A DNA stretch of 64,000 nucleotides from Akkermansia muciniphila (GTDB lineage: Bacteria; Verrucomicrobiota; Verrucomicrobiia; Verrucomicrobiales; DEV007): positions 62,001 to 126,000 of the forward strand of contig CAMCXS010000008.1 in NCBI GenBank assembly GCA_945883495.1. Reading direction: 5' to 3'. This document shows positions 1-34,995 of this stretch, piece after piece. A program made the translations under genes and the position numbers. Under the pieces are notes generated by a model. That model saw only the letters and a list, made by a program, of their open reading frames with translations, ran no database searches and had not been told where the DNA came from. How positions within the stretch are numbered: the first letter of the stretch is position 1; every line of letters begins with the position of its first letter.

Positions 1-3000
1 CCGCCGGAGATGGTAGCCGGCGCGGCAGGCACGCCTCCGTTCAATACCCGGACCGCAATCCGGCCGTTTCCGCTCACGGTGTTATCGATGCGCAGGGTGC
101 CACCTCCCAGTGTGACGTCGCCGCTGCCGTTTGGACCGACCTCAAGCCCAAGGGCATCGTGGTTATTCCCCGAACCGACCCGGCCGGTGATCGATTCGTT
201 GAAGCCATTCAGATCGAAGACCCCCGTCGAGATGACCCGGACGCGCATGCCACCCGTGATCTGATCTCTGGCCAGCAACTTCAGTCTGACGGAGTTGTCC
301 ACGCCGTAGAAATTACCGATGAAGAGCTCCGTGTTGTCCCCAAGCGCCACGGCGTTGACCCCAGCGGTCTTGTTCAACTCGACGGTGCCCTGCCAAATGA
401 CCGTGGTCTGACCGAAGGTATTAGCAGCCGTGCCGCCAAGCTCGAGCGTCCCGTCACCGAACTTATTGAAGGACTGATTGCTCACCACTCCGTTGAGGAT
501 CAGTTCAGAACCCGCCGCGACCTGGATTCCGGTGCGGTTCGAGTTCAAAATGACGTGGCCGACCCAGGTGTTGGTTCCCGAGAGGCTACGGAGAGGCACA
601 ACTCCAAATGATCCCTCGCCATTGCCGCTGAGCGCCAGGGTTTCGTTCGTGATCGTCACCGAATTGGTGAGCTCCACCGCGGCGCCCACCGTGACGTTGA
701 CGCCCGCGCTGGATCCACCGCGAATCGTGGACATGGCCGGAGTGGTGGCGCCACCCGCGTTGACCAGCGCCGTCGTCATCTGCGCGTGGTCGAACTGCCC
801 CATCGTGTTCTGGAACGTGATATCGAAGATCAGATTGCTCACCGCCGAGACCGACACATTACCCGCCCCGATCCCCGGCAACGCGCTGAGCTTCGCGAGG
901 ATGTCAGCCGCCGTGGCGGACGGAGTGGCGCTGTAGGTGATCGCCGCCGTGGTGAACCCACCGAAGCTGAGCGTGAAGGTGGTGCTGGCATCGGTCGGAT
1001 TGCCTCCGATCGCGACGCGCTGAATCTCATTGGTGAGCGAGGTCGCTTCGGCCCCGAAAGCGGAATTCTTCGCCGCGCGGAAGATCCCCTCGTTGACGCG
1101 GGTGACGGCGCCAAAGGTATTCACCCCGGATCCAGACATCACCAGGGTTCCGGTTCCGTGCTTGCCGAACGTTCCGATGTTACCCGGAAGGATGTCCACC
1201 ACGCCCAGGCCAGAGGCACCGGCCGCGTTCAACGAAGTGACACCGACCAAGGGTTGATTGAACCCTCCCAAGGCACCTTGGAAGGCAATGCTGAAGAGCG
1301 CGGGCAGCCCGCCTTCCCCAGCCAGGGTGGCCGCCGTGACCACCACGTTGCCCGTGCCCACGGTCGAAAGCGCCTCAAGCGCCGTCTGGATCGCGCTGGC
1401 CATGGCCACGGGATCACTGCTCCAGGTGAGTGTCGACGTAGTCTGTCCGTTGAAGGTAAGATTGAAGGTCGTCGAACCACTGGTGGGCAGACCGCCAACC
1501 GACAGACGTTGCACTTCATTGACCCCGGTCATGCCGGTGACGGCACTGGAGATATCCAGATCCGACGCCGCCCCGACGAAGACATGTCCATCGGCGCCGG
1601 AAAGATTGAGGGTGGCCACGGAGATCGCGTTCCCGCTTCCTTTGCTCGCCACGAGCCCGCTGCCCAAGGTGAGGCTACCAGCCCCGCTGACGACAATGCT
1701 TCCATCCGCCAGCAAGAGCGCATTTGCGGTGATCGCGCCGGGGACGGCTTCGCTGCTGGTCAGCCTGACGTTGGACGTCGCGGTGGCGCCCGATAGCGCG
1801 GTGGCAAAAGTGCCAGAACCGGCCAAGGAAGCCGTGGTCGCGTTGTACACATCAAGATACCCGAAGAACTGCGATGGCGCGTCGGTCCCGGCGGGAACGT
1901 AGTGGGTCGCGAAGTTCAGACCACCGATCTCGTTGTCAATTACCACGAAATTGACGATGCCGTTGCTGCGGGACGGAGCCACCGTGAAGGTGAACTGGTT
2001 GCCCGTCGTCGTTCCAATGTCCGTTCCGCGGCCGACGAAGCGAACGAACTCCCCAGCCAGCGAAGTGCCACGGTCCAAGGAATCGATCCGCCATTCCGCG
2101 AATGATCCGGGCGCCACCATGGAGTGGATGGCGGAACTCGTGTTGTCGCTAAGCGTAACCACGCCAACGGCCTCGAACGACTCCTCGCCCGCCTTGGAAC
2201 GGAAGGTCATCGTGCCGCCAGACAGAACAATGGAAGCGGCATCATGAACCCGGTTGGTCAGATTGGCGCCCGTGTTGTTGTCCACCACAAACTCACCGCC
2301 AACGTTGACCGTGATGGATGAGGTGTTCAACAGTCGGCCGTCGCCACGGACGATAATCGCGCCACCGTTGCTGTTGATGGTCGTGGCACCGCTGTAGACG
2401 GTGTTGCCGGAGAACACCATCGTGCCGAAGCCTCCCTTGGTTAGGTTGGTCGCTCCGTTCGTCTCGCCAATGCCACCCGAGAATTCAACGATCCCCGCGA
2501 TGCTGGTGTTCAAGGTCGTCGTCCCAGTCGCCAAGTTGACCGGACCCGAGAACGTCAAATCGTTCCCTCCATTGCCAACCGAGTTGCCGCCGAGCAGGTT
2601 GATGGTGCCCCCTCCGAAGAAGAAGGTGTTCCCCACGCTCCGGGAGCCCCCGTGAGCCAAGAGGTGACTACTCGAGTTCGTCACGGCTGGCAGGAAGACG
2701 CGGCTGGTGCCGAACGCGGTGTCCCGGCCAATCACGAATCCACCGGCTTCGAGGAAGCTATCGCCCGAATACGTGCTATCGCCAGAGAGGAGCACAAAAC
2801 CCGTCCCCGTCTTGCGCAGGCCACCCGTGCCACTGATATCGGCCGTGATGATCAGCTCCACGGGAAGTTCGCTCCGATCCCCGATATCGACGGTCCGGAC
2901 CACGTCGCCCAGGAAGAGTTTGCCCTCCACGATGGCGGGCGTGTACGGAGTCCAGATAGCCGCTCCGTTGTTCGGGCTGGCGGCGATGTTGCCATTGAGG

Positions 3001-6000: not shown

Positions 6001-9000
6001 CCGACGAAGAGACTGCCCTGGAAGGCGGCGGCGCCACCGGCCATTCCCAGCTCCAAGGCGCCCGTCAATACCCGGACTTCCCCGAAGATCTGATTGTCCT
6101 GCGTCCCTGCCAAGCGAAGCGTCCCTTCGCCTGCCTTGATCAGGCGTTCGACACGACTCAACCCCTGCGCCACGACGCCTTCAAAGATGAGCGTGCTGCC
6201 GGAGTTCACGCCGACCACGACGTTGGTGTTCGCCATATCGATGTTGCCGACCCATCGATTCGTGCCGCTCAAGCTGCGCAACGAGCCGAGCGTGCTGCCG
6301 TCCGCGCCTTCACCAAAGCCGATGCCACCTTCGCGAAGAGCCAGGTGATTGGAAAGCGTAACGTTGTTCGTCAGATGAAGCGAAGCCCCTTGCTGAACTT
6401 GGACGTTGCCAGTCGTGGCATTTCCCAATGCATTGCTGTGGGAGACCACGACGACCCCTTGGCGGATATCGGTAATGCCCTCGTAGGTGTTGGCGCTGCT
6501 GAGAGCGAGACTGCCGCTACCCAGTTTATTCAGACCTCCCGATCCGTCGATGGTTCCGGACAGATTGGTCGTCCCCGCGCCGTCAAACGTGATGGCGGAG
6601 GTTCCCAAGATGTTGGTAGCACCGACCAAATTGCCCGTGTGGATGGCCCCGGTGAGATTGAGCACGGCGCCCGCGTTCGCGTTCATGAACGTCATCGCGT
6701 TCACCAGCGTGACCTCCAAGGAAACCGTATTCACCCCGCTGATATGATTGGACGTCAGTCCACCGGAGAGACGCACCGCATTCCCCGCGAGCGTTATGCC
6801 CGCGCCATTCATGATGATGGTGTTGAACCGCGTGCCCGCCGCGAAGTCGTTCACCGTGCTCGCGCCTGCGGTGAACAGCAGATCGTTGCCCTCCACGGGT
6901 GCGACATCGCCCACCCAGTTGGCCGCATCGGACCAGCTCTCGCCGTCGCCCCCGCCATCCCAAGTCAGCGTGAGGGTGTTGGTATTTGCGGTCGCGGGAG
7001 CCGAAACCGGAGTGTAGGTGCTGCTACCGCTCCCCAAGCCTGCGGGAACTTCCACTGGGGACACCGGGGTGAGGACGACGTCATTGCCATCGCCTCCCAC
7101 ATAGCTGATCGTGAAGGCAACGCCATTGACCGTGACCGTGGCGCCCTCAGCATAGCCAGTGAAGGTACCGCTCACGGCGTCAAGGGTGCCGTCGTTATCG
7201 ATCAACGTTACCGGACCGTATGGGGAGGTGACCGAGCCCGTCAAATTCAAGCTCGCCCCACTCAAATCGACGGTTCCATTGACCAGGAGACGGTCAAATT
7301 GGCCGGCCAGCGTGCCGTTGATTTGGCCATTGAACTCACCATCGAGTATGAGATTGCCCACGCTCAATGTGCCCACGCCTGACACTCCCGGGCGGATGAC
7401 CGCCGCGCTGTCCAGAGTAAATGATCCAGTGCTCCGGCCAGATCCGGAAAGAATCGTTCCCGCCTCCATGGTCACGGCTCCGGTGCCGGTGGCGGAGCCG
7501 CTACCATTGGTCAGAGACAGTTCGCCTTGATTGACCACCGTGCCGCCGGTGTAGGTGCTACTTCCACCGATGGTGAGCACGCCCGTGCCATTCTTCAAGA
7601 GAGCCTCCTGCTCCACCGCGATGCTCCACAGACCCGCCTGGGCACCGGCAGATGGGTTCACGCTCACGAACGAACCCGCAGAAGGCGCGCGGAACTGGAA
7701 GTCCGGGAACGCACCTCCTGACCCCGTATCACTCATCGCGATCACCATCCGGTAGGTTTTGCCCGCTTCCAGACCCGGGGTGGCGAACGGTCCGAACGAT
7801 CCAACGTTGCCCCGCACGCCAATCAGCTCGGAGAGTTCGAAGCTTCCGTTCTGGTTCAAATCAATCCAAATCGAAGCCAAATCGTCAATGGCCCCATTCG
7901 TCTGGAACTGCCAGGTGCCACTTTCACTTGGCGTGAAGGAGGTGATCCACACGGCACTGAAGGTACTCGCCAATCCGTTGATATCGGTCTCCGCCGCCGT
8001 GTTGAAGACGGTGTCGCTGGGGTAACTCAGCGGCCCAGAAAGCACGTTGCGAATCTGGAATGGAGAGGCCAGCGCATCCGCGATGTTGTTGGACACACTG
8101 CCCACCGTCAGATCGTGGAATCGCTGTTCGAATCCATTAATCGCGCCGGTAGCCACCGTGCTTCCTTTAATTCCGCCAGCGATCGTGAGGTTCCCTGCCC
8201 CATCGACCTCTGCCTGGACATCGCGAAGAGTCAGAGTGCCCCCGACCGTAAACGATCCGCTGTGGCTCTTCAGCAGCACGCTGACATCCCGCAAACCTTC
8301 GTAGCCGAAGATATTCCCGGCAAAGGAGTTGTTGCCGAAGCTCTGGATCGCACCTTCGCCATTTTGGCCACGACCCACCACCGTGATGATTTCTCCGGCG
8401 GTGTAATTCACCCCACCCGGGAAGATCAAGGAAGCCCCCTCGGACACCAAGGTGCCTCGGTCCGTGGTGCCCAAGGCGCCGTTGGCACCGACAATCAGCT
8501 TACCTGCCACCACCGCAGTCACGCCGGTGTAATTGTTCCCCGGGCTGGATAGAAGCAGGGCGCCGTTGCTCGACTTGGTAATGCCTCCCGAGGTGACGGA
8601 TGCCTGGACGTCCAGCTCATATTGCATACCGCCAGAACGCCGCACGTCGAAGGTGCGCTCCCCAGCTCCCAAGTTAAGCGTCCCCTGAATCTGGGCGGCG
8701 GGAGAACTCGCGTTCGTACCAGAGAGCACGACCACGCCAATCGTATTGTTCAGAGCGTAGGCGGCCCCGCCCGTGCGCAGAATGCCACTGGCGGTCGGTC
8801 CAGCGGTCAGTGTAAGCGTGCTGTTCACGGTATCGTTGACACCGTTGAGATCGAGCAAACCTGTGCTGTTGATCAGCACGGCGACATCGGAGATCTGGTT
8901 GGTGCCAGCCGTCGGCGCGTAGCGAACGACATCCGAACCGGAGCTTCCTTGGTTGTCACCCACGGTGAGACTGCCCCGCACCGCGATCGCGCCTCCCTGC

Positions 9001-12000: not shown

Positions 12001-15000
12001 CCGCTACCCGAAAACTCCAAGGTGCCGGCCCCAATCTTCGAGACTTGCAGGTTGTTTCCGAACGCAACCACTCCGCTCAGGTTGAGCGAGGAGCCGCCCA
12101 TCGTGTTCAGCACGGTATTCGTCGATCCGACGGTGACCGCTCCCGCCCAAGTGCTGCTGCCGCCCGAAGTGCGCAGCGCCCCAAAGCCGTTGTTCTCGAG
12201 CCCGGCGCCATTGAGCGTCAACGCCTCCGCGCCTAGGCTGAGTGCCCCGTTCAACTCAAGGGCCGCCATGGCGTGGACCACGGTGCCGCTTGTCGTCGCC
12301 CCAAGCGCTCCAGCATTCGTCAAACGCAACAACCCGTCCGCCACGGTGACCACCCCGCTCAACGTGGTGTTGTTTCCGCCCAAGACCAGGGCTCCGTTGC
12401 GTTCCTTCCGCAAAATTCCGCTTCCGCTGACGGCTCCGCTCAGGGTGAGCTGGCTGGCCGTTTCGATGAGGGCCAGGATCTCCGCCGTCCCAAAGCTCAA
12501 AGCATTTCCGATAGTGTTTTCACCGCCCGTGTTGATCACGAGACCGCCGCCGACCGTAAGAGCCGCCCCGGTGATGTCCACACCGCTTCCGGCGATCATG
12601 AGATTTCCAACCGTTTTCGGTGCAGCCAGAACCTCATCCAGGGTCAATTTCACGTTGTCCGTGGCGGTCGCCAGGGCCAATGAAGTCACATATCCCGCCG
12701 CGCCGATTCCGTTGGTTCCATCGTGCGTCACGAAGTCTAAGTCCGCGTTGGTCGCCTGATCCAAGGTAGCCCAGGTCAGCGTGTTGTTGCTATTCACGCC
12801 GGCTACCGTTCCAGAGAATCGCACCCGGTTTGAGGTGCCGCCCAAGTCGGCTGCGACGCCCGCGCCTTGCCCGACGAACTGCACCGTGGCCCCAGCCGTG
12901 CGCGCCAGGTTACCAGCAGCCAACTCCACATTCTGGCCGTTCCACACCGATCGAATCACCGATGACCCACCCCCAACCGTTGCGGCCGGGACGTCGATGG
13001 TGATGTTCCCAACCGTTTCAGCGAACGCGAAATCGGCACTCCCAACATGGACCAACTCCCCACCGGCGAGGGTGATGGTGGCGGTGTTGCCAATGCGCCC
13101 CTCGGCGTCAACCGGCAGCCCGGCGCTGTTGTCCAGGATAAGAGAAGCGCCCACGCCCACGGTGATGGTGCCCGATTGCGCGATGTCACCATCTCCGCGC
13201 AAGATCAATGCCCCGCCAAGTCGAGTGACGCCGTCCACGAAGGCACCGGCATTGACGGTGGTGGTCCCGGAGTAGGTGTTGTTCGCGGTCAACACCAGGT
13301 TGCCGAAGCCAGCTTTCGTCAGGTTGTTGCCAGCGCCGCTGATCACGGCCGAAATAATCAAGTCATCCCCGCTGCCTGGCACGATGGAGTCGTTCACCGT
13401 GAAGATCCGGGGCCCGCCCAAGGCCAAGGTTCCGTTTCCGCTGATGGTGGCCGCCGGGGAAGTGGTGCTCGTATGACCGAGGTTGTTGACCGTCACTTCG
13501 CCGCCCAGGGTCAGCGTTCCACTGCCGATCTGGATCGCGCCAGATCCGGTCGCGATCCTCTGCAAAGTCACGCCGCCGATGGCATCGCTGAAGCCATTCA
13601 GGTTGGCCACGCCCGCCGGATTCACCGTCAGGGTAGCGACTGGAAGCTGATCGGCAGCCAGCCAGAGCAACCGGGGAACATTGGCCGCGCCCACGCCCGA
13701 GCCATCGCCCACGGTGACACCGCCGCCCGTGGCGTTTGCCCCAGGGGTCTTGTTGAGTTCGACCACGCCTTCACGAATGACCAGGTCACGGTTGAAGCTG
13801 TTTGAGGAGCTTCCGCCAAGCTCCAAGATCCCTTTGCCGACCTTGATAATCCCGTTGTTGTTCTGACGCGTGATCGGGGCGTTGATGATCAACTCCGCCC
13901 CGGCGGCAACGCCGATGGCCGCGTCTGTGTTATCGGTAAAGCCAATGATCGCGCTCTCCAGAGTCACGGTGCCGCTCTCCACCAAAATCGCGCCCCGGTT
14001 CACCTGAGAGCCCTGTGCGCTGCCGTTGAGGGTAATGACTTCGTTGAGAGTCAATCCGGCATCAATCAAGAGCGTTCCTCCGGCGTTGATCTGCGTTTGG
14101 CCAGATCCTGTCGTCGTATTGGCCACCGTCGCCCCAGTCGCCGTCATCGCTGCCACCGCGGCTCGCGCATATTCCCCTTGGAAGGTCACGGTGTAGGGGC
14201 CTGTTCCGGCGCCCCCGACCGACACATTGCCGACCCCCAAAATGGCTTCCAACGCGGACTGAACCACAGAGTTTGACGATGACAGGGGAATCGATGCCGT
14301 GGTCAACCCATTGAAGCTGAGCGTGAAGGCGGCCGTAGCGGTGACGGTTTGCACCGCATTGACCCCGCCAGTCCCCAACGCATTGGCGTTCGACACCTGA
14401 AGAATCCCCGCCGCAACCGTGGTGGTTCCGCTGAAGGAGTTGCTGTTCGTAAGCTGCAACGCACCGATGCCACCCTTGGTCAAGCTGCCATTCCCCGTGC
14501 CACCGTTTTGGATGGCCGCACTGACCACCGTTGTGGTGTCAAATGTCGAGTTGCTGAGGGTCAAGATCCGCCCGGTGTTGTCATTGCTCAGGTTGATCGT
14601 GTTGTTGATCGTGACCGTGTTGGCGCGATTCAGGTTGGCCGTCAGCGTCCTGTCTCCAGCGGCGTTGGTGATGACGCCGGAGAGCGTGAGGTCGACATCT
14701 CCCCGCAAGGTCAAGTTGGCGTTCAGCGTGATGTTGCGATCAAGCGTCGTCGCCGTGCCTCCGGGCAAGGCCGACAAGCTGCTAGTGCCGCTCACATTGA
14801 GCACCGTGGTCGAGCTTCCCAGGGCATTGCCGTTGGGCACGGCGATGATGCCAAGGTTCAGATCAATGGTGCCTCCCACGTAGGTGGAGCTGTTGTCCGC
14901 CGTGAGCGCGAGCAAGCCGTTGTTCGCGTTCGTAGGTCCGGTCTTGCGGATGCGTCCGCCAGCGGCGTTGCTGACGTTGGCGGAAACTTCGAACTCGGTG

Positions 15001-18000
15001 GCCATGATCGTGTCCACCACGCTCCAATCACCGTTTAAGATCGCTCCAGCGCCCGCCAACGAAACGCGGCCGGTGCCAGCGGTGTCACTGATGGTGGCCG
15101 CCGGGGTGAAGGGAAGGACGGTGCCCAGAGCCAGGACGCCGATGTTACCGGTGCCGTTGGTCACACCATCCCCCAAGGTCAGGGTGCCTCCATTGACATC
15201 CAGCTTGCCGCTGTTCGTCGTGCCCAACCGGAAGTAGAGCGCGTTGGCGGTCGGGCCGACGATGGTTTCGGAGAATCCATTCAGATTGATCCGGCCATCC
15301 GTCTCCATGCCGATCAACGCGTTGCTGCCGTTGAGTTGATCCGCGAACTGATTGCTCGCCATCCATCGCACTTCGGCGGCCGTGGCCGATCCACGGTTCC
15401 CGCCCACTTCCAACCGGGCGCTCACCGCGGCCCCGCCAGCGCTCTTGTTGAGGCGCAAGACACCGTTTTGCACCGAGGTCACCGCCGACGCGCCCGTGCC
15501 GTTCGGAGTGCCGTAGGAGTTGGCGCCACTCCCGGCGAACTCCAGAGCCCCCGCCCCGACCTTGTCGAGACCGATGCCCAGACGATTGGTAGAGACACCG
15601 GTTTGGTCAATGTTCCCATTGATCGTCAGGTCGCCACCTTGCTCCACGTTGATGATGACGCGGGGAGAGTTGTTCGCGGTCGAGTCCGAAGCAAATGTCA
15701 CGTTGCCCACCCACGTCGCGGTGCGACCGGCCAAGACCCGCAACCCACCAGTTCCCTGGAAGCCGGAGCCATTCCGCAACGAGGCATTGCCGTCACCGTT
15801 GTTGGCAGTGCGCAAAGTCAGCGATGACTTCGTGATCGTGAAATCGCCATCAAGGATCAGCGTTCCGTTCGTCGCCAAGTTGCCGTCCGCCGCGGAGCTC
15901 ACCGTGACTGCACCAGCAGACGTTCCGAGAGCCGAGCCATTGCGAACCACCAGTTCACCCGCGCCGACCCGGGTCGCACCGGTGTACGTGTTGGTGCCGC
16001 TCAAAACCATGCGACCTCCGCCCACCTTCACCCAGCCGGCCGCTGCGTCGCTGATCACCGCGCTTATGACCAAATCCTCGACCACCGCGCTATCGCTGAC
16101 GGTGATCGTCCGCTCCGCGGCGCCGCCCCAGCCCAGGTTCCCGGAGATCGTCGCCGGGGATGCGGGAGCCCCGCCAAGCAGCGCGTTCACGCTCATGTTT
16201 CCGGCCACCGTCAAGGTCCCGGCACCCGTGGCCACCGTTGAGCTCGCCTGCGGGCCGACGGCCACGTTCAGCGCGGCAATGGTATCGCTGAAGCCCGCCA
16301 AGTTCAGTGCGCCTTCCGCGTTCACCGTCACGGTCCGGTTGTCCGCGACCTGGTTCGCCTGCAGGTAAACCACTGAGGCGGTGCCAGCACCGCCAACGTA
16401 GTCGCCGATCGTCAAATCGTGCGCCATGGCGTTGAATCCGGTCTTGTTGAGTTCCAGCAGACCGTCCCAAACAACGCTGCCAGCGCCCTGCGTGTTCGCC
16501 GCCGTGCCGCCCAGTTCCAAAGTTCCAACGCCAAACTTGTTGAAGCCCTGTCCGCTGACAATGCCATTGATGATCAGCTCGCCAGCCGCCACGTCGATCG
16601 CGGTGCGGTTGTTGTTAAGGGCAACGTTACCTTGCCAAGTGGTCGTTCCGCTCAGGTTGCGGAGCGGGACCGCGCCGACGTTCGATTCTCCGTTTCCGTT
16701 CAGCGTCAAAGTCTCGGCCGCAAAGGTGTGACCGCCGGACAACTCCAAGGTCGCTCCATAGGTGACGTTCACCCCACCGGCGGAGCTACCGAATGCCGTA
16801 GCGTTCGCGGCCCGGTAGGTTCCCTCGTTGATCCGGGTGACCCCACCAAACGTGTTGGTGGCGCTTCCAGAGATGATCAAACTGCCCCGCCCCTGTTTGC
16901 CGAGATTCCCCACCGCCCCGGCGCGCAGTTCGGTGATCGTCGGGGTGGGCGCCGGAGTGCCCGGCCCAGCTGTACCAATGGCCGCCGTCACGGCCGCCTG
17001 ATTGACCGCCGCCAAAGCACCAACGAACGAAATCTCGTAATTCTGCCCACCAAGCTCCGCGACGATCACATTGCCCGAGCCAATGCTCGATAGCGCCTCC
17101 AGAGCCGCCTGCAACGCCGCGCCAGTCACTCCGCCCGTGGCGCTCCACGTCACGGGCGCCGTCGTTTGACCGCCAAAGGTCACGGTAAACGTGGTCGTTC
17201 CGTCCGTCGGGACACCATTGATCGTGATCCGCTGGATCTCGTTGATCCCCACGGTTCCGGCGATCGCACTGGTTACGGTGAGCGTTCCCGCCTCCCCAAC
17301 AAATAGATTCGCCTCCGAACCACCTAAGGTAACGGCGGCCACATTCAACTCGTTGCCCGCTCCTACGCTAGCGACCAAGCCACTGTCCACGGTGAGACTT
17401 CCAGCGCCGCTCAGAACAATGCTGCCGTTGGCCAGGAGAACCGCATTGGCGGTGATTGCGGCCGGAATGGTTTCACTGCTGGTAAGCCGCACGTTCGCGG
17501 TTCCGGTAGCACCGGAGAGGGTCGTGGCGAAGCTGCCCAAGCCAACCAATCCAGCCGTCGTCGCGTTGTAAACCTCCAGCATCCCAAAGAAGGGCGATGC
17601 CGCATCGATCCCCGGGTTGCGATGGGTCGCGAATTGCAATCCGGTCGTCTCATTATCGATCACCATGAAGTCGATGATCCCATCGTTGCGACTGGGTGCG
17701 ACGGTGAACGCAAAGCGGTTGTTCGTCGTAGCGCCGATATCCACGCCCCGTCCCACGAAACGTACGAACTCTCCCGCGAGGGAAGTGCCGCGATCAATGC
17801 TGTTGATTCGCCACTCGGCGGAAGAACCCGGCGCCGCACTGACAATCGACTCGACCACCGAGGAGGTATTGTCGCTCAGCACCAAGTTGTTGATCACCTC
17901 CGAGGATGCCTCTCCCGCCTTGCCCGCGAAGCGCAAACGTCCCCCACTCATGGTGACGTTGGCGAGGTCATTGAGCCGGTTGCCCCGGTTCATCTCGGTG

Positions 18001-21000
18001 TTATCCAGCGACAGCAAGGCACCGACGTTTACGGTGACCCCGGTCGTGTTCAGAAGTGATCCTTCCCCGGCCAAGAGAATGGTTCCGCCGTTGGTGTTGA
18101 GAGTTGTGGTGCCGCTGTAAGTTGCGGCGGACGTAATCGCCATCGTGCCGAAGCCCGATTTCGTCAAAGCCTGGGCGCCAAATGCCTCCCCAATACCGCC
18201 CGCAAATTCCGCGGTGCCGGCGGTGATGATGTTGAGCGTGGTCGCCGCCGCCAGGTTGACTGGACCGGAGAAGGTGAGTTGATTGCCCCCGCCGCCCACC
18301 AAGTTCCCGGCCACGAGGTTGATCGATCCCCCGAAATAAAAGGTGTTCGCCACCGTGCGTGCCCCGGCATCCGAGAGCAGGCTGCCTTGCGGGACATACA
18401 CGACACTGTTCCCAAACGCCTTGTCGTGGGCGATGGAAATACCACCTGCTTCCACGAAGCTGGCCCCGGTGTAGGTGCTGTCGCCAGCCAGCCGCAAGAT
18501 ACCAGAGCCCGTTTTGCGAATGCCTCCCGTGCCACTGATCTCCGCCGCAATGATAAAGTCAGCGGCGAGCGGAATACGATCCGCGATGTCGATCTGGCGC
18601 ACGATATTGCCCAGATTGAGTTTGCCGGTGATCATCGCCGGAGCTTCGGGAGTCCATAGGGCGGCTCCATTGCCGCCAGTGGCGACGATGTTACCGTTGA
18701 TCGTGAGAGTACCCGAACCCGTGGAAACCAAAGCCGAAGCCTGGAGGGTCAAGGCAGTTTGCGCATCGACATTCCCGATCGTTTCGTTGCGCCCGTTGAG
18801 ATCCATCCAACCGGTCACCGACACAGTCACTGGAGTGAGGTAGTCGGGCAGCTGATCGTCTTGGAGCCACCGGACCAAATCGGAGCGGGAGAATCCATTG
18901 GTCACCCCGCCGCCTGTGTCGCCGATGGTGAGCGCCCCGCGCATGGCCGTGACGCCGCCACTTCCCGTCCCCTTGTTGAGCAACAGCGTGCCCTCGCTAA
19001 TGAGGGTCGTGTTGGTGTAGGTGTTGGCGGTCGCGCCAGCGTATTCCAAGGTTCCGAAACCGGTCTTGGTCACCCCCATGGGTTGCAGACCGCTTCCGTC
19101 CACGATCGCGGAAGAAATCGTCAGGTCACTGCCTACGGCACCGTCATTGACCTGAAACGTGCGCGATGCAGCCGTGCCACTGGCGCCAAAGACTTGCAGG
19201 GCAAGGGTCCCGCCCGAGATCGAAGCTCCGGTTGGATGGCCGATCCCCTGCGTGAAGACGCTGATGTTCCCATTGGTCGTCAGCATGCCGCCGTTGGACA
19301 TCGTGACCGCTCCGGCCCCGGTGGCCCCCACTTCCAAGGCCAAGCTGGCGATCACCTCGCCATTGCCGCCCAAATCGAACACTCCATCTCGATTCACGCG
19401 GACGGAAATGTTGTCCACGATCTGGTCGCCACCACCCAAACGCAAGGTTGCTTGATTCGCGCCCGTTCCAGCTCCCACGAAGATCAACTCCCTCGCGGTG
19501 CCATCATTGGTAATCGCGTTGAGACCGGGCTCCTTATTCAGGAACAACGTTCCCGCCAAAACGCGGACCGAACTATTCGAGAAGGTATTGGCGACCGTCC
19601 CGCTCAATTCCAGCTGTCCAGCGCCGGTCTTGATCAGCTCCAGGTTGCCCGAAATCACCCCAGACAAGTTCAATGAGCTGCCCGCCGCGACATCGTAGTG
19701 CGTGGTTGCATTGGCAATCACGGGGAAGCCATTGAGCAAGCTCGTCAGGTTCGTGGCACTCCCCGCTTGGGTAATATTTCCCGCCCAGCTGTTATTGCCC
19801 GCCAAGTTCCGCAACGCCCCGCCCAGCGAAGCGCCTCCGGTTCCATCCAAGGTCAAGGCTTCCGGCCCCACGCTGATGGAGCCGAAGGTGGTTTCTTCCA
19901 GTTCCAACACCGCGTTGGGACGGACTTCGGTGCCGGCGGCTGGAGATCCCAGAGCAGTACTCCGCTGGATGTTGAGAGTTCCCTCGTTCACGTCGGTGAC
20001 ACCGGTGTGCTGGTTGTCACCAGTCAAGATCAGCTTGCCAGCACCGCCTTTATACAACCGTCCCGTGCTGCTGACGATGTTGGCATCGATTTTGGCCGTG
20101 CCGTTGACGGTCACCAGGTTGGCGTTTGCCGCTCCAAACGTCAGCGCCAAATCGGAGCCGAGCACGCTGCCGTCTTCCAAAAAGATCAGGCCCCCAGAAG
20201 TCACGGTCAGCAGGTAGGGACCGGACAAATCCGCGCCGTTCTCGATGATGATCGAATTGACCGTGCGATTCAGGGTCAACGCCTGCGAGGCGGAAATCCG
20301 CAAGTTACTCTGCGGCCCGGCCTGATTGATGTCCGTGACATACTCATCAGCCGGCAATGCGATTACACTAGCGCCAAACGGATTCGATTCCACGGTGGCC
20401 ATGTCCACCCGCCCGGTGGTGGCATCCACCACGATGGCATGACCGAGAACTCCGTTGCTCATGCTTCCGGGGAGGTTCACGAACTCCAGGCGGTTCGCGC
20501 CGGTGGCGCTGAGGGCTTGGCCAACGCCCACGGCACGGAACGGACGATCCGAGAACGACTCAAGCCGGTGCGCCGAGAGCACGGAACTGAAGGCTCCGCC
20601 GGAGGTGTTCTCCACGCGGATCTCGCTGGTGAGGTGCTGCCCGGGCGTGAGGACCCCGACGTATTCCGAGGAATTCGCGGCGGCATTTCCGACAAAGTGA
20701 AGGGTGCCGTTGTTTGTGAGCCCAACCAAGTCGTGGAGCCGGTTGGTCAAATTCACGGCGCCGTTATCGATCTTGAACACGGAGCCCACGCCAACCGTGA
20801 TCGCATTGGAATTCAGGAGCGTCCCGTTTCCGGCCAACGCGAGCGTGCCCCCATTGTTGTTCACCGTGGTGCTGCCGCTGTAGGTATTGGCACCGGAAAG
20901 CACCAGAGTCCCCAAACCATCCTTGGCGAAGTTCACGCTGCCGTAAATGCCTTCACCAATGGCACCTGAGAAGGTAACCGTCTGCGCCGCGTCCATCACT

Positions 21001-23951
21001 TGCACAGTACGGCTCGCCGACAGGGTGACCGGGCCGCTAAAGGTGATATCGTTGCCGCCGAACGTAGACAGCGTCCCATCCAGCCCCATGGTATTCGTGA
21101 TCGTCCGCGCGCCGCCGATGGCCCGGAGCGAGCCGGCCTGGTGAGAATAAAAACCAGATCCGAACGGGGAATTATTTGAATTGATCTCGATCACCCCTCC
21201 GTTGGCAATGAACGGGGAAGCCAAACCGGAGTTGTTTCCGCTCAGGCGAAGCGTTCCCGCGCCGTCCTTGCGCAACGCGACTCCGCTCACTCCGACGATG
21301 TTGGCGGAAATGTCCAGGTCGGTGACCACGTGAGCCAGTTGCGAGTCGCTTATGGAAAAGACTTTGCTGTTTCCGCCGCTCGACCAGGTAGAGTTCACCC
21401 CCTGCGCGGTCACATTCGTGGAGAGGTCGAGCGTCCCCGGCCCCTGAATCGTCGCCATCGGGCTCACCTGGCTGCTGCCGTTGGCGGCATTCAACGACAA
21501 GGTTGGCCCCGCCATGGCCAAGGTGCCGCCGTTCAGCAGCACGTCCGCGCTTTCCGTGCGGCCGAGCGTCAGGGTAATGTTCCCCACCATGTCGCTGAAC
21601 CCATTGAGGTTCAGGGTGCCACTGCTCGCCACGGTGACCGTCGTGAGACCGACCTCATAGAGATCGAAATGACGCATCTGGTCGTTGAAGAGAAAGATCA
21701 CCGTGGCGGAATCTCCCCGCTCCATGTCATCGCCGATCACCAGGTTCCCCGGGACGGCCGTTTTCGCAGTAGCACCGTCACGCTTATTCAGCTCCAGAGT
21801 CCCTTGAATCACCCGGACTTCGCCGCGGAAGGTGTTGTCCTCGGTTCCTGAGAGCTGCAAGGTACCGAGACCGGCTTTGGTCAGACGTCCGCCACTGGAA
21901 AGCCCGCTGGAGATGACCCCGCTGAGGTTCAGGCTGCTTCCATCGTTTACCCCAACGATGGTGTTGGCATTCGAGAGGTCAATCGGCCCCTCCCAAACGT
22001 TGTTCCCGGAAATGCTCCGCAGTGCCCCGAGTTGACTCGGATCGGTCCCCTCGGGGAAGCCAATCCCGCCCTCGCGCAGGGCCAACGCATTGCCGATGGT
22101 CAGACCACCCGTCAAATGGACGGACGCGCCCGCTTGAATCGCCACCAGCCCGGCGCTGAACGCGTCCTTATGGGAGGCCAGGATCACGCCCTGCCGGAGA
22201 TCGGTGATTCCTCCAAAGGTATTCGCCGTGGTCAGACTCACCGTCCCTGCTCCCAGCTTGGTCACGCTTCCCTGACCATCAATGGTGCCGGACACCGTCG
22301 TGTTGCCAGCTCCGTCAAAGGTCAATGCCGATGTTCCAAAGACCGTGGAAGTCCCGAGGAGTGCGCCGGTATGAATGGCTCCACTGAGATTCAACGTAGA
22401 GCCAGTATTCGCGTTCAGAATGGTCTGCGCATTGACCAACGTAATCTCCAACTCAACGGTATTGGACCCACTGACGTTGTTCGTGGTCAGACCGCCATAC
22501 AGCTCTATCGAATTCCCGGTCAGCGTGAAGCCACTGCCATTGATCTGGATCGTGTTGAAACGGGTGTTCGGAGCGAATCCACTGAAGTCAATGGTCCCAG
22601 CACCAGCCGACCCGAACACGAGGTCATCCATCGTGGAAGGCGCCACGCCGCCCGCCCAGTTCGCGCCGTTACTGGCATCGTCATCAAACGCACCCGTCCA
22701 AACGAAGGAAGCCGTCAGGTATTCCAAGCCGTCCGCATTCAGGCTCACCTCAGATCCTTCCGCTTGGCTCGCGTCTGGAAGACGACGCTGCCCGGCTTGG
22801 AGGAACGCGTACATGACATCGTTCTGGCCAGAGGTAAGATCGGCCAATCCAAGCACGTGCCCTTGCTCGTGCATCAACGCACTCAAGAGATCGTAGCGAG
22901 ACGCCGCCAGCGTTCCAGAAGAAGCGTTGACCCCATCGAGATCGGTCAGGTCATATTCCTCGTCCAGACCTGCGGTTGAATCGACAAACCAAGCCTTACC
23001 AGCCGCATCGGAGTCGACCACGATGACCATTCCGTCCGCATATCCAAGACGATTGCCCTCCAAATTCTCCACCCGGTAGGTGATCCGGCTCAGGGCTTCG
23101 ATTTGCTCTTGGGTCAATCCCGTACTGCTCCAACGAAGCGCCGCTTCTTCAGCCAAAGCCTGCACATCAGCCAAACTGAGGCTGGAGCTGCTCGTCACCG
23201 GAACGGCAGCGGGAGCTTCCTCCTCGGCAGAGAGATCGCCAACGGGAGCGGCCGAGCCGATCCAGGCCTGGAGCAATTCCAGACCGCCAGAATGACCCGC
23301 GCCTTGCAGCAGCAATGCCTGCTGGTGCATCAGAGCCGCGAGCAGATCTTGCCGATCGCTGGCGCCATCTTCGGTCACACCGCTGACCATCCATCCAGAG
23401 CCACCACCGTTGTCATCAATCCGGATGAGACTGCCCTCGCTCGCCGAAAGACGGGCGCCGCCCAAGTCGCCCACTTCATACGAAGCCTTGTAGAGTAGCT
23501 CGATTTGCTCTTCCGGAAGCCCCGTCTCCCGCCAGCGGGAGATCGACTCCATCGCCAAGTTCCGCAAGGCATCCTCCGACTGCTCACGAGAAAGGGAGGG
23601 AGCGCCCAAATCCAACTCCGCCGACTCGCCATCAGGGCCAGTGCCAAAATCGATCGTTCCCAACTGCACCGTGGGATCCGCCTCCAAAAGCTGGTCTGCC
23701 AGAGCCGCCGCCTCTTGGCTTCGCGCCACGTTCAAGTCCGTAACGGCAGGAGCGGCGTTAGCCACGTCGACGGCTTCTGCTTCAGCGGGAGACTCGACCT
23801 CCCTGACCGGAGCCTCCGCCGGCGAGGCGGAATACAGAATCCTCGGCTCCAGCTGTTCCCACTGAAGACCGGTTCTTTGCTCCTGGGTCTTCTTGGAACG
23901 GCTTTTGGACTGCTTGGGCGTCTTGGCCTGGTTGGGCTTCTTGGGCTTCAT
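1..23951 (-). CDS. giant LEPR-motif, autotransporter-associated beta-strand repeat surface protein (partial, C-terminus outside window)
   Basis: One phase read from the ATG at 23951 stays open to the left edge, giving at least 7,983 codons. Residues 1-33 are Lys-rich, and residues 34-42 read LEPRILYSA, the N-terminal motif of LEPR-XLL giant exported proteins. Two related domains follow (about 105-245 and 250-410). The second has HEQGHVLGLAD at 361-371 and a VMY turn at 379-381, the zinc-site pattern of matrixin-like metalloproteases; the first has HQQALLLQGAG at the equivalent place (209 on). From about residue 415 the protein is beta-strand repeats with the recurrent pattern K.GaGTL.LsG.NtYsG.T, interrupted by six NEVQR-type modules and a PA14-like domain near residues 5275-5437 (about 7640-8130). 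A cell-surface or secreted location follows from the family. No typical cleavable signal peptide and no Shine-Dalgarno sequence are seen; the leader is pyrimidine-rich on the coding strand. The substrate or adhesion target is unknown. Confidence 0.9.
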   Translation of the reverse strand, partial: MKPKKPNQAKTPKQSKSRSKKTQEQRTGLQWEQLEPRILYSASPAEAPVREVESPAEAEAVDVANAAPAVTDLNVARSQEAAALADQLLEADPTVQLGTIDFGTGPDGESAELDLGAPSLSREQSEDALRNLAMESISRWRETGLPEEQIELLYKASYEVGDLGGARLSASEGSLIRIDDNGGGSGWMVSGVTEDGASDRQDLLAALMHQQALLLQGAGHSGGLELLQAWIGSAAPVGDLSAEEEAPAAVPVTSSSSLSLADVQALAEEAALRWSSTGLTQEQIEALSRITYRVENLEGNRLGYADGMVIVVDSDAAGKAWFVDSTAGLDEEYDLTDLDGVNASSGTLAASRYDLLSALMHEQGHVLGLADLTSGQNDVMYAFLQAGQRRLPDASQAEGSEVSLNADGLEYLTASFVWTGAFDDDASNGANWAGGVAPSTMDDLVFGSAGAGTIDFSGFAPNTRFNTIQINGSGFTLTGNSIELYGGLTTNNVSGSNTVELEITLVNAQTILNANTGSTLNLSGAIHTGALLGTSTVFGTSALTFDGAGNTTVSGTIDGQGSVTKLGAGTVSLTTANTFGGITDLRQGVILASHKDAFSAGLVAIQAGASVHLTGGLTIGNALALREGGIGFPEGTDPSQLGALRSISGNNVWEGPIDLSNANTIVGVNDGSSLNLSGVISSGLSSGGRLTKAGLGTLQLSGTEDNTFRGEVRVIQGTLELNKRDGATAKTAVPGNLVIGDDMERGDSATVIFLFNDQMRHFDLYEVGLTTVTVASSGTLNLNGFSDMVGNITLTLGRTESADVLLNGGTLAMAGPTLSLNAANGSSQVSPMATIQGPGTLDLSTNVTAQGVNSTWSSGGNSKVFSISDSQLAHVVTDLDISANIVGVSGVALRKDGAGTLRLSGNNSGLASPFIANGGVIEINSNNSPFGSGFYSHQAGSLRAIGGARTITNTMGLDGTLSTFGGNDITFSGPVTLSASRTVQVMDAAQTVTFSGAIGEGIYGSVNFAKDGLGTLVLSGANTYSGSTTVNNNGGTLALAGNGTLLNSNAITVGVGSVFKIDNGAVNLTNRLHDLVGLTNNGTLHFVGNAAANSSEYVGVLTPGQHLTSEIRVENTSGGAFSSVLSAHRLESFSDRPFRAVGVGQALSATGANRLEFVNLPGSMSNGVLGHAIVVDATTGRVDMATVESNPFGASVIALPADEYVTDINQAGPQSNLRISASQALTLNRTVNSIIIENGADLSGPYLLTVTSGGLIFLEDGSVLGSDLALTFGAANANLVTVNGTAKIDANIVSSTGRLYKGGAGKLILTGDNQHTGVTDVNEGTLNIQRSTALGSPAAGTEVRPNAVLELEETTFGSISVGPEALTLDGTGGASLGGALRNLAGNNSWAGNITQAGSATNLTSLLNGFPVIANATTHYDVAAGSSLNLSGVISGNLELIKTGAGQLELSGTVANTFSNSSVRVLAGTLFLNKEPGLNAITNDGTARELIFVGAGTGANQATLRLGGGDQIVDNISVRVNRDGVFDLGGNGEVIASLALEVGATGAGAVTMSNGGMLTTNGNISVFTQGIGHPTGASISGGTLALQVFGASGTAASRTFQVNDGAVGSDLTISSAIVDGSGLQPMGVTKTGFGTLEYAGATANTYTNTTLISEGTLLLNKGTGSGGVTAMRGALTIGDTGGGVTNGFSRSDLVRWLQDDQLPDYLTPVTVSVTGWMDLNGRNETIGNVDAQTALTLQASALVSTGSGTLTINGNIVATGGNGAALWTPEAPAMITGKLNLGNIVRQIDIADRIPLAADFIIAAEISGTGGIRKTGSGILRLAGDSTYTGASFVEAGGISIAHDKAFGNSVVYVPQGSLLSDAGARTVANTFYFGGSINLVAGNLVGGGGNQLTFSGPVNLAAATTLNIITAGTAEFAGGIGEAFGAQALTKSGFGTMAITSAATYSGTTTLNTNGGTILLAGEGSLLNTTGVTVNVGALLSLDNTEMNRGNRLNDLANVTMSGGRLRFAGKAGEASSEVINNLVLSDNTSSVVESIVSAAPGSSAEWRINSIDRGTSLAGEFVRFVGRGVDIGATTNNRFAFTVAPSRNDGIIDFMVIDNETTGLQFATHRNPGIDAASPFFGMLEVYNATTAGLVGLGSFATTLSGATGTANVRLTSSETIPAAITANAVLLANGSIVLSGAGSLTVDSGLVASVGAGNELNVAAVTLGGSEANLFVGEAGTLTVTSAIAGTVGINEIQRITINGVPTDGTTTFTVTFGGQTTAPVTWSATGGVTGAALQAALEALSSIGSGNVIVAELGGQNYEISFVGALAAVNQAAVTAAIGTAGPGTPAPTPTITELRAGAVGNLGKQGRGSLIISGSATNTFGGVTRINEGTYRAANATAFGSSAGGVNVTYGATLELSGGHTFAAETLTLNGNGESNVGAVPLRNLSGTTTWQGNVALNNNRTAIDVAAGELIINGIVSGQGFNKFGVGTLELGGTAANTQGAGSVVWDGLLELNKTGFNAMAHDLTIGDYVGGAGTASVVYLQANQVADNRTVTVNAEGALNLAGFSDTIAALNVAVGPQASSTVATGAGTLTVAGNMSVNALLGGAPASPATISGNLGWGGAAERTITVSDSAVVEDLVISAVISDAAAGWVKVGGGRMVLSGTNTYTGATRVGAGELVVRNGSALGTSAGAVTVSSAADGNLATNGTLILDGDFTITKSSLTLRTANNGDGNASLRNGSGFQGTGGLRVLAGRTATWVGNVTFASDSTANNSPRVIINVEQGGDLTINGNIDQTGVSTNRLGIGLDKVGAGALEFAGSGANSYGTPNGTGASAVTSVQNGVLRLNKSAGGAAVSARLEVGGNRGSATAAEVRWMASNQFADQLNGSNALIGMETDGRINLNGFSETIVGPTANALYFRLGTTNSGKLDVNGGTLTLGDGVTNGTGNIGVLALGTVLPFTPAATISDTAGTGRVSLAGAGAILNGDWSVVDTIMATEFEVSANVSNAAGGRIRKTGPTNANNGLLALTADNSSTYVGGTIDLNLGIIAVPNGNALGSSTTVLNVSGTSSLSALPGGTATTLDRNITLNANLTLRGDVDLTLSGVITNAAGDRTLTANLNRANTVTINNTINLSNDNTGRILTLSNSTFDTTTVVSAAIQNGGTGNGSLTKGGIGALQLTNSNSFSGTTTVAAGILQVSNANALGTGGVNAVQTVTATAAFTLSFNGLTTASIPLSSSNSVVQSALEAILGVGNVSVGGAGTGPYTVTFQGEYARAAVAAMTATGATVANTTTGSGQTQINAGGTLLIDAGLTLNEVITLNGSAQGSQVNRGAILVESGTVTLESAIIGFTDNTDAAIGVAAGAELIINAPITRQNNNGIIKVGKGILELGGSSSNSFNRDLVIREGVVELNKTPGANATGGGVTVGDGSGVGAANVPRLLWLAADQLPVATLTVNPAGVANLNGFSDAIGGVTLQRIATGSGAIQIGSGTLTLGGEVTVNNLGHTSTTSPAATISGNGTLALGGPRIFTVNDSIVPGSGDDLIISAVISGAGNNLTKAGFGNLVLTANNTYSGTTTVNAGAFVDGVTRLGGALILRGDGDIAQSGTITVGVGASLILDNSAGLPVDAEGRIGNTATITLAGGELVHVGSADFAFAETVGNITIDVPAATVGGGSSVIRSVWNGQNVELAAGNLARTAGATVQFVGQGAGVAADLGGTSNRVRFSGTVAGVNSNNTLTWATLDQATNADLDFVTHDGTNGIGAAGYVTSLALATATDNVKLTLDEVLAAPKTVGNLMIAGSGVDITGAALTVGGGLVINTGGENTIGNALSFGTAEILALIETASQLTLSGAVSGSGILRKERNGALVLGGNNTTLSGVVTVADGLLRLTNAGALGATTSGTVVHAMAALELNGALSLGAEALTLNGAGLENNGFGALRTSGGSSTWAGAVTVGSTNTVLNTMGGSSLNLSGVVAFGNNLQVSKIGAGTLEFSGSGANTITTTAGTLTVTEGSLLLSKTGTAVALPVNLVLGNLATGATATYTSAGTDQIGGVTVTVNRLSTLDLAGRNDTFNALVMTGGEVKTGAGILTLNGNLTYNSGGEAVINGFLNLNNGTRTFTVNDGHGLNDLTINAAISNGKLVKAGGGLLLLNNSANTFTADVNEVQRIVTASTTPTSTFSITFNGSTTGTITVGADNAATAANIQAALQALPGIGSGGVTVTVAATNTFNLNFAGHLSGADLPNQITTTVGSGAGTYTPSTLTAGLAGVRLNGGALSLGSSTALGAARLHIDGNAQLLATGGDRALANNVTINPNITVTFGGRRDFGGTDDLSLTGGVTLIGSASAQLVALDVTDNRTLVTMSGVVSGGGNLLTVVKRGIGTLVWSGNNTFDVRNYTAAADFDDSDGIRIEGGILRIANSSALGSSAETAAVMIRGDLGAVLEVDGTTLNGSVNVTGKVLDIMAVDVNSTVVMGTRGFLNRSSGEMVHTGTLRNLGGTNSIVSPTGEIRLRNVANNNQTTSFTFGSDAGRLDLNGGLTGYQNNATPTSVVGRAVYKTGAGTLRTSGGTANNITGGYYILNGALELNKTAGVNAIDGNVIIGDGVGGANADRLVVLASNQIADTRTITINPSGQLLLGTGVSELATLATMVAGNSSDGSANIDLAALSSLRLNGEVTVTHRSGGDGTSVGASITGGGTLELVPTAGTRTFTVNDGVAESDLTISASIANGGGTANLTKQGPGRLTLSGNNVYSGATSVTAGVVRAASNAALGTGAGTNEVQTIATIPTGTFTLSFGGIATGNITGSTADGAAVQAALEAVVGVGNVSVTGAVGGPFTVTFQGALANANVEQLTSTTTTIVFGTTTQGAGGTTVSSGASLELAGDVTVSNETVFLNGTGFVNGAISPLVTGITGTGALRSVSGENTWAGSVVLAGATSGANLSMGVETGKLTVNGTIFQQVANHNLIKTGIGTLEFGGSTSNAYGGTTFVNEGTLVLNKQGGAIAVRGSLTVGDNQGSSGSDVVRYAPTAGTNQISDVAVLINSTGLLDLNGVNDTVNSTLTLTAGPTASGILRTGGAAYALNNTIGVVVLSGTNASSPAAQIQGTLNLGAGERTFDVRRSGGMQYELDVQASVTSGGITKSSNGALLLSSPGNNYTGVTAVVAGKLIVGANGALGTTDRGTLVSEGASLIFPGGVNYTAGEIITVVGRGQNGEGAIQSFGNNSFAGNIFGYEGLRDVSVLLKSHSGSFTVGGTLTLRDVQAEVDGAGNLTIAGGIKGSTVATGAINGFEQRFHDLTVGSVSNNIADALASPFQIRNVLSGPLSYPSDTVFNTAAETDINGLASTFSAVWITSFTPSESGTWQFQTNGAIDDLASIWIDLNQNGSFELSELIGVRGNVGSFGPFATPGLEAGKTYRMVIAMSDTGSGGAFPDFQFRAPSAGSFVSVNPSAGAQAGLWSIAVEQEALLKNGTGVLTIGGSSTYTGGTVVNQGELSLTNGSGSATGTGAVTMEAGTILSGSGRSTGSFTLDSAAVIRPGVSGVGTLSVGNLILDGEFNGQINGTLAGQFDRLLVNGTVDLSGASLNLTGSVTSPYGPVTLIDNDGTLDAVSGTFTGYAEGATVTVNGVAFTISYVGGDGNDVVLTPVSPVEVPAGLGSGSSTYTPVSAPATANTNTLTLTWDGGGDGESWSDAANWVGDVAPVEGNDLLFTAGASTVNDFAAGTRFNTIIMNGAGITLAGNAVRLSGGLTSNHISGVNTVSLEVTLVNAMTFMNANAGAVLNLTGAIHTGNLVGATNILGTSAITFDGAGTTNLSGTIDGSGGLNKLGSGSLALSSANTYEGITDIRQGVVVVSHSNALGNATTGNVQVQQGASLHLTNNVTLSNHLALREGGIGFGEGADGSTLGSLRSLSGTNRWVGNIDMANTNVVVGVNSGSTLIFEGVVAQGLSRVERLIKAGEGTLRLAGTQDNQIFGEVRVLTGALELGMAGGAAAFQGSLFVGTDVESSGSATVKLLANDQFRAFNTFGSGLNTVTVRSTGELNLNSFSQTAGNVVLNTGVTDSGDIVLGGGVLTLGGASITVTGIQGSSEVTPAATISGGTLNLGTVFSGAGAGLAKTISVGDTQLPNAATDLHISANIVGAGAVSLNHAGTGTLRLSGDNSGLASQYVMSGGGILEIAHGNALGNGQLSLQNSGNVLKAIGGAKTITNTVVLDGNVATIGDNLTFNGNVMLSGDRTFLVMDAAQAVTINGIIEEGIFGNRSFTKSGRGTLILTAANTYSGTTTVADDGGRLELRDNGTLLNSHTVIVRDSAVLMLDNSGSANIANRINDRTLVQLEGGNLHFVAGTGGTTETLAAVVLSNDLSSGLVLDSSNGNAHLLVQRGRFEGNADLAVTTLGNDLSSSGANRLTFAETLAGEAVNDGILPRITVRGTTGQFGYGTYSSVSEGAAITALSATDYVTDINQAGPQSNVRLSAGTHVLTTARTINSLILEDGAILQGDGFVLTVEAGGIVLGDGSSIDVATLSLGARSYLTVADGDEAVISSTVIGAASALSKTGTGKLVLSGDNLFSGYAMINEGILNIQRSTGLGSSNIGISGGTPTFIRAGATLELEATSWGDIQIGPENLAVEGNGFNDLGAIRNVSGNNSFAGNIAQAGVNTNLLNALGGFPAPTSATVFYTVETGSSLNLSGVISGNAEMIKQGGGTLELSGIGSNTHDATTRILEGTLLLNKEAGLNAVLNFVQVGTDRAGAPAATLRLGSSDQMRDDRGVRVHSSGLFDLNGNSEVLGANFELIVGPQGAGDVNIGTGGTLTTNVNTSVWTIGRNNPAGSTITGGTLALQVYGTSTTASARTFLVNDGAVGSDLTVTAAIVDGTGLQSVGVTKTGLGTLEFGGATANTYTGTTTVNEGTLLLNKGTGTGGVLAMQGPLTIGDANVNSGFAASDIVRWLQPHQLPNASAPVTVTVTGWMDLNGQDEAIGNAVAQTALTLQAAARVTTGVGTLTLNGNIAASPNNGAAIWTPYTPAIVEGKLFLGDVVRTVDIGDRSELPVELIITADISGTGGLRKTGTGFVLLSGDSTYSGDSFLEAGGFVIGRDTAFGTSRVFLPAVTNSSSHLLAHGGSRSVGNTFFFGGGTINLLGGNSVGNGGNDLTFSGPVNLATGTTTLNTSIAGIVEFSGGIGETNGATNLTKGGFGTMVFSGNTVYSGATTINSNGGAIIVRGDGRLLNTSSITVNVGGEFVVDNNTGANLTNRVHDAASIVLSGGTMTFRSKAGEESFEAVGVVTLSDNTSSAIHSMVAPGSFAEWRIDSLDRGTSLAGEFVRFVGRGTDIGTTTGNQFTFTVAPSRSNGIVNFVVIDNEIGGLNFATHYVPAGTDAPSQFFGYLDVYNATTASLAGSGTFATALSGATATSNVRLTSSEAVPGAITANALLLADGSIVVSGAGSLTLGSGLVASKGSGNAISVATLNLSGADGHVFVGAASDLDISSAVTGMTGVNEVQRLSVGGLPTSGSTTFNLTFNGQTTSTLTWSSDPVAMASAIQTALEALSTVGTGNVVVTAATLAGEGGLPALFSIAFQGALGGFNQPLVGVTSLNAAGASGLGVVDILPGNIGTFGKHGTGTLVMSGSGVNTFGAVTRVNEGIFRAAKNSAFGAEATSLTNEIQRVAIGGNPTDASTTFTLSFGGFTTAAITYSATPSATAADILAKLSALPGIGAGNVSVSAVSNLIFDITFQNTMGQFDHAQMTTALVNAGGATTPAMSTIRGGSSAGVNVTVGAAVELTNSVTITNETLALSGNGEGSFGVVPLRSLSGTNTWVGHVILNSNRTGIQVAAGSELILNGVVSNQSFNKFGDGTLELGGTAANTFGQTTVIWQGTVELNKTAGVNAVALGDNTELFIGNFYGVDNSVRLKLLARDQITGGMRVRVISTGVFDLNGFNESITGRVGSGNNHDALGLEVGPNGSGDVTLGGGTLRIDNTVSGNGRIAVRVLNGGVPAAPATISG
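757..1035 (-). repeat. NEVQR-type module, copy 6 (extra copy in megarepeat unit 2)
   Basis: The module is about 92 residues long and begins with NEIQRVAIGG. It follows the pattern TTFTLSFGG, then LSALPGIGAGNVSV, then FDITFQ. Unit 1 has no counterpart here, which explains the roughly 350-base change of register between the two megarepeats. Confidence 0.75.
1242..1523 (-). repeat. NEVQR-type module, copy 5
   Basis: Begins NEVQRLSVGGLPTSGSTTF and continues LEALSTVGTGNVVV and FSIAFQGALGGFNQP. It is the positional counterpart of the module at 16970-17246 in megarepeat unit 1. Confidence 0.75.
9432..9667 (-). repeat. NEVQR-type module, copy 4
   Basis: Begins NEVQTIATIPTGTFTLSFGG and continues LEAVVGVGNVSVTG and FTVTFQGALANANVEQL. 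It is a shorter version of the module than copies 5 and 6. Confidence 0.75.
11245..11502 (-). repeat. NEVQR-type module, copy 3
   Basis: Begins NEVQRIV and continues TFSITFNGSTTGTITVG, LQALPGIGSGGVTV and FNLNFAGHLSGADLP. It lies between ordinary beta-strand repeats. Confidence 0.75.
14133..14365 (-). repeat. NEVQR-type module, copy 2 (opening residue changed to NAVQT)
   Basis: Begins NAVQTVTATAAFTLSFNG and continues LEAILGVGNVSVGG and YTVTFQGEYARAAV. The Glu of the usual NEVQ opening is replaced by Ala. Confidence 0.7.
16970..17246 (-). repeat. NEVQR-type module, copy 1
   Basis: Begins NEIQRITINGVPTDGTTTF and continues LEALSSIGSGNVIV and YEISFVGALAAVNQ. It is the unit 1 counterpart of the module at 1242-1523. 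Confidence 0.75.
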
Positions 23952-33815: not shown

Positions 33816-33837
33816 GGCAGGGTGTTGGGTTCGTCTG

Positions 33838-34914: not shown

Positions 34915-34995
34915 GCGGATCTCGAAACTCCTTCGACGAAAACTTCCCCTCCGGTCAACAATTCCATTGCGAGGGAAAGTCTAGGGGAAGCCCTT

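Follow-up and report, generated by a model that had tools for sequence, protein, structure and literature searches.

The giant gene lies at one end of the window, by which we mean the whole 64,000-nucleotide stretch of DNA analysed here (G000:C8:62001-126000, from the 206-contig draft genome G000 of a bacterium that probably belongs to the Verrucomicrobia–Planctomycetes group). It is encoded on the minus strand, as are all of its features described below, starts at window position 23951 and leaves the window at its start. The first 7,983 codons, at 3..23951, are the 43 % of the gene that was covered by the initial annotation, and the remainder extends 31.8 kb past the window start. In the parent contig the gene is one intact ORF of 18,587 codons (C8:30188-85951, 55.8 kb), with zero internal stops and zero Ns. 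The predicted product has a mass of 1.85 MDa and an acidic composition (pI 4.45). The order of its parts is an N-terminus with an LEPR-XLL motif and a zinc-site-like domain, a first unit of about 5,200 residues (U1), a 35-residue linker, a second unit (U2), ten Calx-beta domains, a third unit (U3), 12 further Calx-beta domains, a Pro/Ala linker and a C-terminal tail. None of the 18,587 residues is a cysteine. Two sulfatase-like genes, recognized by reading the translations, are found near the giant gene (32199-33920 and 34702-37071).

Relatives that span the N-terminus and enter the first unit were identified in two genomes of the same genus (G001 and G002) and one of the same family (G015), and the G001 and G002 orthologues adjoin addB-addA, as the giant gene does in the window. 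In each of the three (L028 on G001:C55, L029 on G015:C373 and L030 on G002:C89) the contig breaks off within the initial ~600 aa of unit 1. Relatives reaching further into the unit were not found, because every orthologue is cut off by the end of its contig, and searches of the drafts with later parts of the unit, with the C-terminal 188 aa and with the downstream neighbour did not find the rest of the gene. The LEPR-XLL motif (QWEQLEPRILYSASP; 23808..23858) scores 21.5 bits against the NCBIfam model NF012209 (LEPR-8K; cut-off 17) and is conserved in all three relatives. Immediately before U1 lies a metallopeptidase-like domain (22707..23183) containing the sequence HEQGHVLGLAD at 22839-22871, and the pattern HExxHxxGxxD is invariant in the four orthologues. 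The domain matches Pfam Peptidase_M10 with an E value of 3e-4 and 21 bits, under the cut-off of 24; the best matches in a PDB profile search are mostly metalloproteases and weak (E 0.02-0.8), and an AF2 model of the domain has a pLDDT of 43, too low for use. What appears to be a second, degenerate copy of the zinc domain, with HQQALLLQ replacing HExxH, is seen at about 23250-23550 (aa ~135-235) and is missing from the G001 and G002 orthologues. On reading, the N-terminus is Lys-rich and has no obvious hydrophobic segment.

Of particular interest is the unit of about 5,200 aa, which is present three times, as U1 (aa 416-5627; 7071..22706), U2 (aa 5663-10909, of which the first 2,321 aa lie at 3..6965 before the unit leaves the window) and U3 (aa 12059-17008). 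The initial annotation had described a unit of 5,240 residues duplicated head to tail. The unit and its long in-register diagonal are real, but there are three copies and not two, and U1 and U2 are separated by the 35-aa linker (6966..7070). The U1-to-U2 period is 5,247 aa. The U2-to-U3 period is longer (6,396 aa) because a Calx-beta array intervenes. In other respects the early description was borne out. The near-constant offset of 15.71-15.74 kb between landmarks corresponds to unit starts at 22706 and 6965, which are 15,741 nt apart; the units share one reading frame of the single ORF; and the match continues beyond the window through the rest of U2, including its PA14/GEVED-like domain. 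Self-comparison of the protein gave a dominant diagonal at 5,150-5,250 aa, the expected long diagonal near 15.7 kb rather than merely diffuse similarity between short repeats, with 169 and 155 shared 5-mers per 50-aa bin; the mean is 9.6, and the diagonal peaks reach about 8 to 18 times that value. Additional diagonals at 6,350-6,450 aa and 11,600 aa reveal the third copy.

U1, U2 and U3, each of some 5,000-5,250 aa, are homologous in register. BLASTP aligned U1 with U2 from end to end (3-5212 with 2-5247; 3,082 bits), compared with 253 bits for U1 against a shuffled U2 and 640-668 bits, at about 24 % identity, against unrelated PATR giants of the same genome. Protein identities in MAFFT alignments were 52 % for U1/U2 (4,870 aa), 53 % for U2/U3 (4,503 aa) and 49 % for U1/U3 (4,688 aa), against ~23 % out of register, and the DNA of the units is 64-66 % identical across kilobases in the same reading frame throughout. 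When 100 windows of 150 aa were compared, 82 matched both in-register partners, and the better partner outscored every other place. Each unit contains 26 PATR-like repeats with nearly equal spacing in U1, U2 and U3, indicating that the small repeats were copied together in their order, and the contrast drawn at the outset with ordinary short-repeat expansion is upheld. It is hardly credible that numerous short PATR repeats fell into one register by chance and so produced the long diagonal. Every PATR protein of this genome does align with the others at ~23-25 % over thousands of residues, but the in-register score far exceeds those of the other PATR giants and of the shuffled unit, the DNA matches run for kilobases along one diagonal and the repeat spacing is matched. 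An assembly or binning artefact that joined repeats or strain variants is also very improbable. The genome is a draft and related assemblies break within this gene, but the copies have diverged by ~35 % at the DNA level and ~48 % at the protein level, the frame is open without Ns over its full length and same-genus contigs carry the same gene start beside addB-addA.

The protein belongs to the PATR family, with 55.7 bits in 800 aa for PF12951 and 68.9 bits for TIGR02601, and contains 78 PATR-like repeats in all. It is also a Calx-beta protein, the two arrays scoring 282.9 and 312.5 bits against PF03160 (cut-off 27). The ten domains after U2 and the 12 after U3 are of similar order, and an in-register arrangement of the two arrays is moderately supported. 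A GEVED/PA14-like domain lies near the end of U1 (7719..7967; GEVED 20.5 bits and PA14 12.7 bits, both under cut-off) and of U2, where it is split by an insert of the EVQ domain described below, and is absent from U3. The name PATR derives from autotransporter passengers, and the repeated region had at first been called a passenger, which would make this a type V autotransporter with a duplicated passenger. We consider such a reading very unlikely, and the term passenger is not retained, for Pfam finds no autotransporter beta-barrel in the C-terminal 1,579 aa (aa 17009-18587), where its only matches are Calx-beta, LapA-like and DUF4843-like, and the N-terminus is of the LEPR-XLL type. No match to RTX repeats (HemolysinCabind, PF00353) passes in the whole genome. 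A PEP-CTERM signal (PEP motif, transmembrane helix and Arg-rich end) is absent on reading the C-terminus, which ends ...GQLLSSEEM. Filing the protein as an autotransporter, RTX or PEP-CTERM protein was thus rejected on the missing barrel, repeats and C-terminal motif, respectively.

The divergence between the units is old, as had been proposed. Over whole units dS is 1.4-1.7 (pS 0.63-0.67) and dN is 0.43-0.49; inter-unit synonymous sites are near saturation almost everywhere, and dN is well under dS. In a tree built from ~600 aa at the start of the unit, U1 grouped with G001/G002 (support 100/99) and U2 with U3 (100/100), and G015 lay at the middle; this covers one end of the unit, and elsewhere along it different pairings are favoured, owing to rate shifts or exchange. 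A single clade of U1, U2 and U3 was rejected (p-AU 0.005), which places the duplication separating U1 from U2/U3 before the split of the same-genus species. From these sequence comparisons, the first duplication very probably predates the separation of the same-genus species; with a root on the G015 branch, it would be younger than the split from the genus of G015. Comparison of the unit start between G001 and G002 gave a dN of 0.09 and a dS of 1.15 (dN/dS about 0.08), indicative of purifying selection. An order-wide search of 387 genomes found it only in the same four, belonging to this genus and one other; a scan of the genome collection returned only one distant PATR-type protein (28 %), and a viral scan gave no match.

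We also considered whether a recent duplication was followed by fast, diversifying divergence of the kind seen in antigenic variation. One unit is far more divergent than the other two in columns 2400-2800 and 2900-3300, and the best-agreeing pair of units varies strongly along the unit (chi 353, against a mean of 60 and a maximum of 111 for shuffled columns), both of which would suit such a history. The near-saturation of synonymous sites with dN well below dS, the rejection of a single clade of the three units and the low dN/dS between G001 and G002 all speak against it, however, and we regard it as improbable relative to an ancient duplication. The varying pair preference was also considered as a sign of gene conversion between units, and this was dropped, as most of the pattern fits rate shifts in one unit.

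A second, smaller module is superimposed on the units. The EVQ domain, of ~90 aa, occurs in 11 in-frame copies at seven sites of the giant gene; three sites are unique to one unit, four are common to two units and none is common to all three. Within the window, U1 carries EVQ domains at 16965..17243 and 9387..9662, at sites common to U1 and U2, and at 14097..14354 and 11229..11504, at sites common to U1 and U3; U2 carries one at 1221..1520, at a site in common with U1, and one at 717..1031 that is found in U2 only. No Pfam or NCBIfam model matches the domain. The EVQ profile nevertheless matches phage virion proteins, namely the tail-tip protein gp23 (PDB 9d93; E 1.5e-28) and a major capsid protein (PDB 9d9w; E 2.4e-5), as well as tail families of PHROG, 367 phage records and 186 relatives from viral contigs. 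Judged by these profile matches, EVQ is homologous to tail and capsid domains of phage virions. Elsewhere in the family it was seen in just two proteins, another one of this genus and a giant of G020. Two adjoining EVQ domains lie in a 952-aa frame at G000:C32:28534-29160, with counterparts in G001:C126 and G002:C72. The EVQ part of the AF2 model is of low confidence.

Neither target-site duplications nor terminal repeats were consistently present at the EVQ inserts when compared with a random control, and hence there is no evidence for a transposon-like mechanism. A tract of ~300 nt in U1 (9406..9705) is nearly identical to U2, with ~96 % DNA identity in its core and ~60 % outside, in the manner of a conversion tract, and its edges coincide with an EVQ domain. 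One EVQ pair is identical in protein over 83 aa, with near-identity of the DNA stopping at the domain edges. We take this tract to be a recent exchange between U1 and U2, the sole convincing one.

Our best explanation of the whole, to which we would give a probability of roughly 0.75, is that the gene encodes a beta-helical fibre of great length, secreted or at the surface and probably serving as an adhesin, that arose by two ancient in-frame tandem duplications. In the simplest history, of which part is seen in the data, an ancestral one-unit gene would have undergone a first duplication, before the species of this genus separated, giving U1 and the ancestor of U2 and U3; a second, probably of a block consisting of a unit and its Calx-beta array, would then have given U2 and U3, the carriage of the array being presumed. 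Whole units may have been duplicated in frame through slippage or unequal recombination between PATR segments rich in repeats, with each duplication lengthening a beta-helical rod and leaving its inner order unchanged. The units would subsequently have diverged under purifying selection with slight local homogenization, and gain and loss of the EVQ domains and of the PA14/GEVED-like domain would have followed the duplications. The protein is probably on the cell surface. We envisage that it is exported as a very long fibre or adhesin in which PATR units act as rods and Calx-beta arrays as calcium-binding spacers, with the EVQ and PA14/GEVED-like domains projecting outward. PATR membership is the main support for the suggestion that the units might form a beta-helix, as an AF2 model of a PATR and EVQ segment (pLDDT 56; best PDB match E 0.11) is too weak to rely on. 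The rise of a beta-helix is ~0.48 nm per coil of ~22 residues, and on this model the three units together would span roughly 0.3 micrometres.

The function of such a fibre is less secure than its anatomy and history, and we favour a role as an adhesin by a modest margin over even odds. With the same anatomy and history, the protein might instead serve as an envelope or S-layer-like scaffold, in a biofilm matrix or in contact-dependent attack on other cells, with the N-terminal zinc domain an active protease. The invariance of the zinc-site pattern in the four orthologues is in keeping with these other roles, which we judge possible and clearly the less likely choice. Large adhesins are the more typical setting for domains resembling ligand binders and for Calx-beta spacers. 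Ligand binders of giant adhesins are often projected from split domains (PMC12077191), and in mycobacteriophage Douge host glycans are bound by Ig-like domains of the capsid and of the tail tube (PMC13033339). By analogy, the EVQ and PA14/GEVED-like domains are possible glycan-binding heads of the proposed fibre. It is interesting to speculate that modular evolution within the gene has worked on two scales, with tandem duplication of the whole ~5,200-aa unit accompanied by EVQ domains of phage-virion type that entered, left or were copied between units in frame, changing the binding heads on a constant rod; we offer this as a tentative proposal that is rather unlikely to hold in full.

The LEPR-XLL and PATR families and giant surface proteins as such are known, and the gene described here is a variant of a giant PATR/LEPR-XLL protein. 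To our knowledge, it is unusual for three old copies to be repeated in tandem with a period of ~5,200 aa, and a literature search gave no relevant match. These results indicate that short-repeat expansion is not the only way in which a bacterial giant gene can lengthen, since whole units of ~15.7 kb can also be duplicated in tandem, and that the product of such duplication can be old and kept under selection. The three units, together with the same-genus species, offer a datable series on the origin of giant proteins, and the EVQ domain connects the decoration of bacterial giants with a domain of phage virions. The drafts of the relatives break within the gene, and such repeats are therefore probably under-reported.

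PVC bacteria are known to possess surface proteins that are both giant and repetitive (PMC5177795, PMC11573180). Bacterial giant genes (Reva and Tummler, 2008, as cited in PMC11573180), including those of planctomycetes (PMC5177795), resemble the present one in being giant, lineage-restricted and probably surface-associated in PVC-type bacteria; the largest Fuerstia gene is 36.2 kb (PMC5177795), in contrast to 55.8 kb here, and the megarepeat structure is a feature of the present gene. Giant RTX/Lap-type adhesins (SiiE, MpIBP and AhLap) share great length, calcium-binding arrays, and PA14-like and inserted ligand-binding domains, but their repeats are of ~100 aa rather than ~5,200 aa, and no match to RTX repeats passes in the genome studied here. 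The mycobacteriophage-type tail and capsid domains (PDB 9d93, 9d9w) are homologous to EVQ, which here lies within a bacterial PATR giant at unit-specific sites. With the LEPR-XLL giants (NF012209, LEPR-8K) the protein shares the N-terminal motif, above the curated cut-off, and extreme length, whereas here three copies of one unit make up most of that length. Finally, PATR/TIGR02601 proteins, among them two other giants of this genome, of 11,677 aa and 7,674 aa, share the PATR repeats and giant size; these two differ in having a PEP-CTERM-type tail and no mega-unit diagonal. Both are open frames, located at G000:C7:51262-86292 and G000:C13:46510-69531, respectively.
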